NCBI GenBank assembly: GCA_030147505.1
Contig: JASBVG010000094.1
Span: forward strand, 31,372-95,371
Length of the DNA stretch: 64,000 bases
Direction of reading: 5' to 3'
Origin: Tardiphaga sp.
GTDB lineage: Bacteria; Pseudomonadota; Alphaproteobacteria; Rhizobiales; Xanthobacteraceae
Part shown: one piece after another, positions 56,417-59,905 of the stretch
How positions within the stretch are numbered: position 1 is the first letter of the stretch
Layout of the letters: each line of letters starts with the position of its first letter
Position numbers and translations under genes: made by a program
The notes under the pieces: model-generated
Database searches by the model: none
Told to the model about the DNA's origin: nothing
Seen by the model: only the letters and a program-made list of their open reading frames with translations

Positions 56417-56743
56417 CTACTTGAGTGACGAAAACGCCGTCGGCGCCAGAAACTGGCTGGTGATATTGGCGACGATCTGGCCGTCTTCCTCGGATCTCGC
56501 ACGCGCCGAGATCCAGTCGGGATCGGTCATGAAGGCGGCCCACAGCGTCTCGCGCTCCGCCAGCGATTCCCACTTCAGCATGTAAGTCAGGTCATTGTTC
56601 GACTCACCGATCACCGTCGTGAAGAAGCCCGCCTGGCGGATGCCGTGCTTCTCCCAGAGCTTCAACGTTGCCGTCTCGAACCGCTTGAGCAGTGCAGGCA
56701 GCCGGCCCGGCAGACAGCGGTAGATGCGCAATTCATAGATCAT
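56417..56743 (-). CDS. NIPSNAP family protein
   Basis: MIYELRIYRCLPGRLPALLKRFETATLKLWEKHGI. Confidence 0.9.
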   Translation of the reverse strand: MIYELRIYRCLPGRLPALLKRFETATLKLWEKHGIRQAGFFTTVIGESNNDLTYMLKWESLAERETLWAAFMTDPDWISARARSEEDGQIVANITSQFLAPTAFSSLK

Positions 56744-56875: not shown

Positions 56876-57190
56876 ATGCGACACACCGCCCTCTCCCTGT
56901 TCTTCACGATCACCCTGACCGCCGCAGCCATGGCGCAGCAACCCGGCCAGATCACGTCGGGGGCAACCGGCGTGACCGTGAATGGCAAGCCCGCCGCGCG
57001 CGTCGGCGACACCACCACGGACGGCAAGATCATCGAGGGCGCCAAGGGCGTCTATATCAACGGCAAGCCGGTGGCCGTGGTCGGCGGCAGCACCGAATGC
57101 GGCGCCAAAACCACCTCGGGCGCCACCGGCGTCTTCGTCAACGGCAAGCCCATGGCCCGCGCCGGCGACACTACATCGGGCTGCAAGTAA
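56876..57190 (+). CDS. PAAR-repeat protein with N-terminal Sec signal peptide
   Basis: MRHTALSLFFTITLTAAAMAQQ leader; GVTVNGKPAARVGDTTT, GVYINGKPVAVVGGSTECG, GVFVNGKPMARAGDTTSGC. Confidence 0.85.
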   Translation: MRHTALSLFFTITLTAAAMAQQPGQITSGATGVTVNGKPAARVGDTTTDGKIIEGAKGVYINGKPVAVVGGSTECGAKTTSGATGVFVNGKPMARAGDTTSGCK

Positions 57191-57196
57191 GCGCAG

Positions 57197-59905
57197 ATGA
57201 CGTCGTTCTGCCAGACGCGCTGGATGGCGGGCGCAAGCCTCGCCTACCGGCTCGCGGTGGCTATCGCCGCGGGCGTCGTGGCGCTGTCCGTCACCCCGCA
57301 TATCACCCAGGCCCAGAGCCGCAAGACGCCGAGCGAGCGCGAATTCGTCGATCGCATCAATGACGCCTTCCGGCTGCTGCAGGCAGGCGACAGCGAAGGC
57401 GGACGCCTGCGCCTGAAAAACACACTGCGCGCCCTTGCCGAGAGCAACTTTACCGAGCTGACGATCCGCGCCTATCTCAACGCGGTCACGCTGTTCGAAC
57501 GCCGCCGCAATACCGCCACCGCCTCCGAACTGTTTGCCGATGCATCAAAGACCCGCGCCGCGCAGGAGACCGGCAGCGCTGCCGCCACATTCTGGTTCGA
57601 ATATGCGCGTTTCCTCAACCGCACCAACCAATACGAAGCCGGCATCCCCGTCGCCGCCGAGGCGCATAAGCGCATGCGTGCGATCTATGGTATGAATTCG
57701 CAGGAGGACATCGCGGGCGGCGATATTCTCGCCACCGTGCTCACCAATAACGGCGCCGTCGCCGCCGGCCTGAATCTTTCCGAAGAGATTTATCTCAACG
57801 CCAAGAAGGCACTCGGCGACCGCGTGCCGCTGACCTGGCGCACCGAGAACAACTATGCCGAAGCGCTGCGCATGGTCGGCCACCCCGATGTGGCGGCCAC
57901 CATCGACGAGCCCCTGCTAAAGCGGCGCATCGCGCATTACGGCATCGGCAGCATCCAGGCGCTGGTCAGCGCCAGCAATCTCGCGCTCAACCATCTCGCC
58001 ATGGGCAACGAGGCCGAGACGCTGAAGGCGCTCGATCTGCAGAAGCGAGCCGCTGCCGCGCTCGCCGATCCGACCTCCGAACATGTGGCGCAAGCGGAGG
58101 TCTGGATCAAATATACCAAGGCGTATTTTCATCCCGACCGGCGTCTGAGCGATGCCGATCTCGAAGCGATGGCTCGCGTGAAGGACTGGAATGGCGGGCC
58201 AGACATCTTGCGCATCAAGACCGCGCAGCTCGCCGCCGATCAATATGAGATGCGCGGCGACACGGAACGCGCCCTCGCGCTGCGCATCGACGCCTATCAG
58301 CGATCGCAGGCAACCATCGCCCAACAGCATCCGATGACATTCGACGCCCTGCTCGGCGTCGCCATGACGCGGATGAAGCGCGGCGACAGGGATACGCTCG
58401 CCACATTCAAGGACGTCGAGCAACAGTCGTTCCGCTGGATGCTGCGCGAGGTCGGCACCGCCGGCAACCGCTATGTCGCCGAGACCATGCGCAAACTCGC
58501 CGATGACATCCTGTATGAATTCGGCCGCTACGCCCTGCAGGAACCGACCGCTGCGCAGGCCTACGCCGAGGCCGTCACGCGCTGGAAGACTATGGAAGAC
58601 GGTGACCGCACCCTGCTCCGTCTCACCATCGATCGCCTCCCCGACGACGCGACCAGGGCGCTTGCGCAGACTGTGCTGCGCCTCTCCGGCCAGCAGCAGG
58701 AGCTGCTGTCATCCGGCAAGATCGACGGCGATGCGCGGCAGGTGCTGACCGAACTCCAGGAGGCCCGCAAGGCGCTTGCCGCGCGCATGGGTGAGAAAGC
58801 ACCGAACGGCCTCAAGCTGCCGACCATCGAGGACAAGCTCGAACCCGCAGATGCACTGGTGGATTTCTTCGTCAGCGGTCGCCGCAACCGCGTCACGCCC
58901 ATTGATCCGAAACCGGAGATGCGCCTGCAGGCGGTGATCCACCGCCATGGCAAATCGCCGTCGCTGGTCGATCTCGGCCCGCTCGACAATTTCCTTGGCG
59001 CCGATGTGACCTCTGCAGATCGCATGAAGACCTTCCGTCGCCTCTACGACACGTTGCTCGGCCCGCTGAAGCCGCAGCTCTCTGAGGTGAAGCGCCTGTT
59101 CCTGGTGCCCGACAGCGAACTTTACAGCCTGCCCTTCGCGATGCTGCAGGATGCCGGCGGCCGCTATCTCGACGAGATTTACGATACCCGCATCCTGACC
59201 CGCGCCGACGCGCTTTTCTTCGCCGATCACGACACCAAGCTCGCGGCGGGCAGCAAGGCGCTGCTGGTCGGCGGCCTCGATTATGCCGGCGCCGCCAATC
59301 AACTGCCCTCGACCAAAACCGAGATCGACACCGTCGAGAGCGATCTGAAAAAGCGCGGTCTCACCGTCACCAAGCTGGCCGGCGATGGCATCGGTGAGCC
59401 GCTCCTTCGCAACGATGCCAAGGGCGCATCGCTGATCCATCTCGCCACCCACGGCTTCTACAAGACCGCCACCGACCGCACCGACGCGCTCTGGCGTAGC
59501 GGCCTCGTTGCGTCCCGCCCCAATCTCAGCCGCCCGCCACAGCGCGACGACAATGACGGCGTGCTCTATGCCCACGAGCTGATGAACTGGGACCTGTCGT
59601 CGGCTGATCTGGTCGTGCTTTCCGCCTGTCAGACCGCCCTCGGCGATCCCAGCCGCGTCGGCAGCGTGCGCGGCCTCCCGACTGCACTCGCCATCGCCGG
59701 TGCACGCCGCTCGCTGCTGACACTGTGGGAAGTCTCGGACGAGGGTACGGCAAACTTCATGGCACGGTTCTATCAGGTGCTCGCCGACGACGGCCTCGAT
59801 TATGCGAGCGCCCTGCGCAAAGTTCGCATCGAGGCGATGCACGGGAAAATCAAGGCCGCCGACGATCCGTCGGTCTGGGCGGCTTTCGTGTTCTTCGAGA
59901 GCTGA
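57197..59905 (+). CDS. Exported TPR-CHAT domain protein
   Basis: Signal-like LAVAIAAGVVALSVTPHITQAQ; C-terminal CHAT motifs LIHLATHGFY (His752) and VVLSACQTALGD (Cys811). Confidence 0.92.
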   Translation: MTSFCQTRWMAGASLAYRLAVAIAAGVVALSVTPHITQAQSRKTPSEREFVDRINDAFRLLQAGDSEGGRLRLKNTLRALAESNFTELTIRAYLNAVTLFERRRNTATASELFADASKTRAAQETGSAAATFWFEYARFLNRTNQYEAGIPVAAEAHKRMRAIYGMNSQEDIAGGDILATVLTNNGAVAAGLNLSEEIYLNAKKALGDRVPLTWRTENNYAEALRMVGHPDVAATIDEPLLKRRIAHYGIGSIQALVSASNLALNHLAMGNEAETLKALDLQKRAAAALADPTSEHVAQAEVWIKYTKAYFHPDRRLSDADLEAMARVKDWNGGPDILRIKTAQLAADQYEMRGDTERALALRIDAYQRSQATIAQQHPMTFDALLGVAMTRMKRGDRDTLATFKDVEQQSFRWMLREVGTAGNRYVAETMRKLADDILYEFGRYALQEPTAAQAYAEAVTRWKTMEDGDRTLLRLTIDRLPDDATRALAQTVLRLSGQQQELLSSGKIDGDARQVLTELQEARKALAARMGEKAPNGLKLPTIEDKLEPADALVDFFVSGRRNRVTPIDPKPEMRLQAVIHRHGKSPSLVDLGPLDNFLGADVTSADRMKTFRRLYDTLLGPLKPQLSEVKRLFLVPDSELYSLPFAMLQDAGGRYLDEIYDTRILTRADALFFADHDTKLAAGSKALLVGGLDYAGAANQLPSTKTEIDTVESDLKKRGLTVTKLAGDGIGEPLLRNDAKGASLIHLATHGFYKTATDRTDALWRSGLVASRPNLSRPPQRDDNDGVLYAHELMNWDLSSADLVVLSACQTALGDPSRVGSVRGLPTALAIAGARRSLLTLWEVSDEGTANFMARFYQVLADDGLDYASALRKVRIEAMHGKIKAADDPSVWAAFVFFES

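Follow-up and report, generated by a model that had tools for sequence, protein, structure and literature searches.

PAAR domains are regarded as components of the T6SS and of related contractile spikes. The orphan (class 1) T6SS tips VCA0105, c1882 and EAEC T6SS-1 PAAR lack a Sec signal, start with a PAARxxDxHxC half-repeat, bind zinc by His/Cys residues and need VgrG; the tip zinc of T6SS PAARs is held by four His/Cys (PMC10715212). PAAR proteins with a TM helix were described as strictly T6SS-associated, and caspase-clan peptidases tied to secretion modules are known from polymorphic toxin systems (PMC3482391). The combination of a TPR body with a C-terminal CHAT domain is found in Csx29 of Craspase, a conditional caspase-like protease that is coupled to a partner, Cas7-11 with its crRNA (PMC10028731, PMC9729208).

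Here we describe a locus in a stretch of 64,000 nucleotides from a Tardiphaga sp. genome (hereafter the window), in which a small PAAR protein with a Sec-type signal, referred to as exported PAAR, precedes a TPR-CHAT protein. With the orphan T6SS tips, the exported PAAR shares the repeats, the predicted cone and the organization as a single small domain, but it differs from them by three C-terminally closed repeats, by the missing metal His, by the signal and by the absence of a T6SS. The closest parallel known comes from prePAAR effectors with their split PAAR, in which the N-terminal half-repeat is likewise non-contiguous and supplied from elsewhere in the chain; in these effectors, however, the half-repeat is N-terminal and ahead of transmembrane segments (PMC7773334), whereas its equivalent in the exported PAAR is C-terminal, and the exported PAAR comes with neither a TM domain nor a chaperone or toxin. 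Francisella IglG-like PAARs, as far as they are cited in PMC10715212, have four tip Cys like some of the exported PAARs, but these are T6SS proteins and the majority of the exported PAARs has only two Cys. The TPR-CHAT protein resembles Csx29 in its layout; unlike Csx29, it is predicted to be secreted and lies beside a PAAR, and neither Cas7-11 nor CRISPR was present among the locus neighbours. In contrast to polymorphic toxin systems, there is no toxin or immunity domain at the PAAR-CHAT locus. A literature search, with subscription journals mostly outside its coverage, returned no earlier description of an exported or re-ordered PAAR or of a PAAR with a CHAT.

The two proteins of the locus

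The features referred to in the text are located in the window as follows:

56417..56743, minus strand: NIPSNAP-family gene, context only and not part of the system (Pfam NIPSNAP, 2.7e-28; synteny)
56876..57190, plus strand: exported PAAR protein, 104 aa (Pfam PAAR_motif, AF2, Foldseek, alignments)
56876..56935, plus strand: predicted PAAR signal peptide MRHTALSLFFTITLTAAAMA (pattern kept in orthologs; evolves faster than the mature part)
57098..57100, plus strand: codon of Cys75, corresponding to the tip-ligand Cys position of canonical PAARs (4jiw/4jiv chain alignments)
57146..57187, plus strand: C-terminal half of repeat 3, corresponding to the half-repeat that opens canonical PAARs (KPMARAGDTTSGCK, includes Cys103; permutation test)
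57191..57196, plus strand: gap of 6 nt from the PAAR stop to the CHAT start
57197..59905, plus strand: predicted secreted TPR-CHAT caspase-like peptidase, 902 aa (Pfam CHAT, AF2 helices in the N-half, catalytic motifs)

A sequence-only reading of the window had reported a 104-aa PAAR protein and a 902-aa TPR-CHAT protein 6 nt apart, and the ORFs, their coordinates and their Pfam matches were confirmed. The 104-aa ORF matched PAAR_motif (PF05488) with an E-value of 1.4e-20 and 73.7 bits at a gathering cut-off of 27, and scored 51 bits against the T6SS PAAR equivalog NF033420, below the cut-off of 124. A putative signal peptide of approximately residues 1-20, ending between AMA and QQ, is followed by three full PAAR repeats, and the mature protein contains two Cys (Cys75 and Cys103) and no histidine. 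The AF2 model of the protein had a pLDDT of 86.6 overall, with block means of 90-97 across residues 21-100, i.e. the mature domain, and predicts the PAAR cone fold. In a Foldseek search with this model, the top six matches were PAAR spikes (best E-value 1.6e-3, TM 0.4-0.6); the poor E-value and TM are expected from the altered chain order described below.

The 902-aa ORF matched Pfam CHAT (PF12770, clan CD) over residues 612-898 with an E-value of 5.6e-56 and 190.5 bits. The CHAT domain follows a putative signal peptide of approximately residues 1-40, ending between TQAQ and SRK, and a helical/TPR body, for which we obtained a weak Pfam match to TPR_12 and a similarity to NF040586 over residues 94-446 (5.3e-18, under the model cut-off). 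The AF2 model of this protein showed helical pairs in the N-half, but its confidence was low (pLDDT 58) and too poor for further use. The reported HATHG and SACQTA motifs are both present, with His752 and Cys811 as the dyad, and these two residues were invariant across every aligned relative. The catalytic dyad is thus intact by alignment, and peptidase activity is predicted. Signal-like N-termini and the catalytic His/Cys motifs were also seen in the CHATs adjacent to PAARs in other genomes.

Between the window and its relatives, dN/dS was 0.07-0.14 for the mature PAAR, which is under strong purifying selection, and 0.10-0.18 for CHAT; these low values argue against either ORF being a chance one. 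The signal region of PAAR changes much faster. To recognise signal peptides, we relied on the pattern of n-region, hydrophobic core and AxAQ and on its conservation in orthologs. By this measure, the signal peptides proposed earlier are likely for both proteins, as the signal-type pattern is kept in relatives of PAAR and CHAT while the letters vary, and both proteins have a signal-peptide-like N-terminus pointing to Sec-type export.

Order of the repeats and tip cysteines

Ordinary PAARs start with a half-repeat (MxxPAARxxDxHxCP), followed by two repeats and a closing strand (GSGNVLIG). In the exported PAARs, three complete repeats follow the signal, the last one closing in the C-terminal half listed above, and in alignments to solved PAARs, no counterpart was obtained for the N-terminus of the canonical or the C-terminus of the exported proteins. 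In a permutation test, the C-terminal piece of exported PAARs was moved to the front and the resulting sequences were scored with an HMM built from 17 ordinary PAARs. The score rose in 8 of 8 exported PAARs, seven of them with near-full coverage of the profile: the window PAAR went from 48.2 to 53.7 bits, with the profile span extending from 21-85 to 3-90, and the PAAR of locus L171 from 54.6 to 74.7 bits. Upon the reverse permutation, 16 of the 17 ordinary PAARs scored higher on an HMM of the exported ones. When all cuts of the window PAAR were scanned, the best one coincided with the repeat boundary, and cuts one repeat before it scored almost as well, which a repeat protein would be expected to show. 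By these comparisons, the exported PAAR is re-phased, with the canonical N-terminal half-repeat replaced by a C-terminal one. As the PAAR repeats are homologous to each other, this order could have originated from gain and loss of repeats instead of a true circular permutation. The sequence-only reading had noticed neither the changed order nor the missing metal His.

The periplasm is normally an oxidising compartment. Since the exported PAARs carry paired Cys, disulfides are suggested at the position of the metal. The family has no conserved His and the window protein lacks the four His/Cys of a canonical zinc tip, but Cys75 matches the conserved tip Cys in alignments with solved PAARs and was invariant in the ortholog alignments A1 and A3. 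Mature exported PAARs have either two Cys, located in repeats 2 and 3, or four, located at the N-terminus and in all three repeats; the automatic cleavage cut at times clips the N-terminus, so that exported PAARs tabulated with three Cys have four in the full sequence, and a few rows of this table are not members of the family. The sole exception, L029 (L052/L029, G079:C144), has a frameshift that breaks the third repeat, and is either a pseudogene or a sequencing error. Judging from these positions, the Cys probably form one or several disulfides that replace the metal; a bound metal may be present instead, most likely in the 4-Cys forms. Several 4-Cys forms (MPACAVTGASSVMINGRPALRLSDVAACPP...) were seen among divergent exported PAARs at the loci L183-L186 and L190-L192 (family f41, G161, G184), and these may form an older branch within the exported family or a separate one. 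A further unusual architecture was noticed in Dehalococcoidales and actinobacterial MAGs, where larger proteins that include an Ig-like stretch end in PAAR repeats (L100:2582-2764, L114:4269-4454).

Contractile machines

The earlier reading had the pair occur without a T6SS, and our searches agreed: VipB, Phage_sheath_1 and Phage_GPD/VgrG were not found in the genome of the window or in the other Tardiphaga tested, including Tardiphaga genomes rated 100% complete. As no VgrG-type protein was found in the genome, neither was a needle for this PAAR to cap. VipB sheath proteins were not detected in 38 of the 43 genomes carrying an exported PAAR, among them every Tardiphaga tested, and a phage-sheath match over the cut-off was obtained for only one (G483) of 15 genomes tested. 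A T6SS elsewhere in the genome that would use the PAAR is not supported either, as this PAAR is the only one and contractile proteins were not found.

Distribution and inheritance of the exported PAAR

The Tardiphaga genome (6.2 Mb, 95% complete, estimated contamination 7.6%) contains a single PAAR and a single full-length CHAT, and these two genes are adjacent; with an estimated 5,900 genes, the chance of such adjacency for two single genes is approximately 1 in 5,000. As the contig is syntenic with other Tardiphaga, it is unlikely to be a contaminant. The genes at the locus are kdsA, NIPSNAP, PAAR, an HDAC-like deacetylase gene and pyrG, besides CHAT, and the NIPSNAP gene adjoins the PAAR slot in most relatives. 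Synteny is complete from eno to pyrG in Bradyrhizobiaceae bacterium PARB1 (L058), whose PAAR and CHAT are 89% and 88% identical to those of the window, and in Tardiphaga sp. P9-11 (L059).

Within the family, 30 of 150 genomes gave a match, two of which (G074 and G141) were ordinary PAARs and were excluded, leaving 28 genomes with an exported PAAR. Nearly all of these 28 PAARs sit in the slot between pyrG and kdsA, where the gene is syntenic in Tardiphaga, Nitrobacter, Afipia, Rhodopseudomonas and other genera; the copy of G427 adjoins kdsA. Several other families of the order have the PAAR at different, family-specific sites, e.g. by queE or groES. Outside the order, no exported PAAR was found among 385 genomes of the class and 399 of the phylum; the PAARs obtained there were, among the matches read, ordinary ones without signal peptide and mostly with the ligand His/Cys. 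The exported PAAR is thus a family of the order Hyphomicrobiales/Rhizobiales, usually without an adjacent CHAT.

The PLSDB plasmids gave no match at an E-value of 1e-8, and GC and GC3 of both genes were near the values of the neighbouring genes, with no clear compositional deviation. The synteny across the family, the neighbour-like GC and the lack of plasmid copies indicate an ancestral gene of the lineage, vertically inherited in the pyrG-kdsA slot across Nitrobacteraceae, and not a recent insertion. The proposal of a discrete insertion among housekeeping genes therefore had to be abandoned. In some relatives, a gene on the opposite strand lies between PAAR and pyrG (L038:8675-9343, L043:7824-8381); its product recalls ClpP-like periplasmic proteins (SSPGG motif) and is a candidate second protease bordering PAAR.

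Pairing of PAAR and CHAT

A CHAT gene immediately downstream of the exported PAAR and on the same strand was found in 8 of the 43 carrier genomes, in four genomic contexts. The other 35 have no adjacent CHAT, although some have CHATs elsewhere. Among the PAAR-bearing Tardiphaga sampled, CHAT was next to PAAR in five of six, and two named Rhodopseudomonas have the pair in the same slot, with a CHAT of 74-76% identity. At other sites, the pair was present in G398 (Rhizobiales Ga0077537, loci L070 and L168), whose CHAT is 26% identical to that of the window, in G312 (L173) and in G355 (L170), the latter with two CHATs in tandem after PAAR. The adjacency thus reaches beyond close relatives, as the sequence-only reading required, to Rhodopseudomonas and to other families and sites with a TPR-CHAT of approximately 26% identity. 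The genes are separated by 6 nt in the window and in L058, 12 nt in L059, 21 nt in L062, 19 nt in L066 and -4 nt in L070, i.e. an ATGA overlap; wider gaps were seen in L173 (approximately 27 nt) and L170 (approximately 85 nt).

In the CHAT tree, the PAAR-adjacent members are split between two deep clades that both also contain solo relatives, which forces at least two changes. The pairing either arose repeatedly or persisted over great divergence, and both cases favour a functional link, which the adjacency probably reflects. At the same time, the solo PAARs in 35 of 43 carriers and the solo close relatives of CHAT mean that neither gene requires the other. In Tardiphaga G066 (L033, G066:C1), CHAT is internally deleted and PAAR is intact and constrained, which argues that PAAR is independent of CHAT; the short scar between PAAR and the HDAC-like gene resembles the codons near the CHAT start plus the last residues (FES-stop). 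The conserved unit is therefore PAAR, and CHAT is an optional, patchy partner. Of the module proposed earlier, the non-random pairing stands, but not the fixed cassette: PAAR is usually alone, CHAT is patchy and was lost in G066. A fixed two-gene cassette was rejected, as most PAARs have no CHAT beside them.

Possible roles

Sec export in the absence of a T6SS, together with the recurrence of a downstream CHAT in separate lineages, suggests that the PAAR tip fold has been put to another use in the cell envelope. With moderate confidence, we favour a reading in which PAAR is a Sec-exported spike-tip domain that acts as a recognition or cap element of the envelope, with a secreted TPR-CHAT coupled to it in part of the lineages. 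The exported PAAR would be a soluble PAAR-fold domain, closed by its C-terminal repeat; we infer that it would reside in the periplasm, with a disulfide at the tip, and that its flat base could bind an extracytoplasmic partner, beta-helical or of another kind. Some lineages would probably make TPR-CHAT from the same transcript, and the TPR part of this protein may contact and dock PAAR, either free or bound to its ligand. This docking could direct or switch on cleavage by CHAT of PAAR, of the PAAR ligand or of a third protein. Toward CHAT, PAAR may be a scaffold, a sensor or a substrate, the three roles proposed in the sequence-only reading. If so, the PAAR fold would have a second life outside injection machines, and the recurrent link to PAAR would offer a concrete and testable partner for extracytoplasmic caspase-like proteases. 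PAAR genes of this kind are likely mislabelled as T6SS proteins in annotations that use PAAR matches alone.

Alternatively, PAAR and TPR-CHAT could be two independent envelope genes on a shared transcript, PAAR being structural and TPR-CHAT a separate peptidase, with an adjacency due to incidental co-expression. The carriers without adjacent CHAT, the solo CHATs of other genomes and the deletion in G066 would all be accommodated by such an arrangement, but we consider it unlikely in view of the recurrence of order, strand and short spacing with CHATs of only about 26% identity in four contexts and three families, and of the few CHAT genes per genome where the pairing recurs. It is improbable that the exported PAAR serves as a decoy or guard toward the VgrG/gp5 spikes of T6SS attackers: it is predicted to fold like a VgrG/gp5 cap, most carriers have no contractile machine of their own and conflict systems often contain CHAT/caspase folds (PMC10028731, PMC3482391), yet its slow, purifying evolution is unlike that of a fast-evolving decoy and PADLOC returned no model match for PAAR or for two TPR-CHATs. 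Decidedly improbable is the extended version of this idea, an envelope guard-and-protease immunity in which PAAR captures incoming contractile needles, or a surface beta-helix of the cell itself, and licenses CHAT; if true, an immune module would have been built from the attacker's own spike fold.

The remaining two explanations are hardly tenable. The PAAR_motif match and the spikes as closest folds are what an ordinary tip of a T6SS, an extracellular contractile system or a phage tail would give, with the signal peptide being a misread start, but the score of 51 bits against the NF033420 cut-off of 124, the signal-type N-terminus in orthologs, the missing metal His and the lack of VipB, phage sheath and GPD/VgrG in a genome with this PAAR only make such a role very improbable. 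A T6SS, phage or eCIS tip was rejected for the genome of the window, as sheath and VgrG-type proteins were not found; a contractile system might sit in the unassembled 5% of this genome, but the Tardiphaga genomes rated 100% complete gave no match either. There is similarly little probability in a conflict cassette that recently moved in between housekeeping genes: the patchy CHAT and the variable content of the pyrG-kdsA slot would agree with mobility, but neither the synteny of PAAR in four named genera and by kdsA in G427 nor the neighbour-like GC/GC3 and the missing PLSDB matches do.

Further genes associated with CHAT

At the L168 locus, a small gene for an exported protein with the haem-binding motif CAHCH (L168:9856-10179) overlaps the end of TPR-CHAT by ATGA and is apparently the third gene of that operon. 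A second conserved type of TPR-CHAT, of approximately 1050-1130 aa, was noticed in Afipia- and Tardiphaga-like genomes (L291:5088-9979, L292:2134-6758, L293:4680-9533). Downstream of it are genes for a small, apparently secreted protein and then for a zinc-ribbon/coiled protein (MECPFCAETIRDEAIACKHCSRDL...), and this arrangement looks like another CHAT-centred operon.
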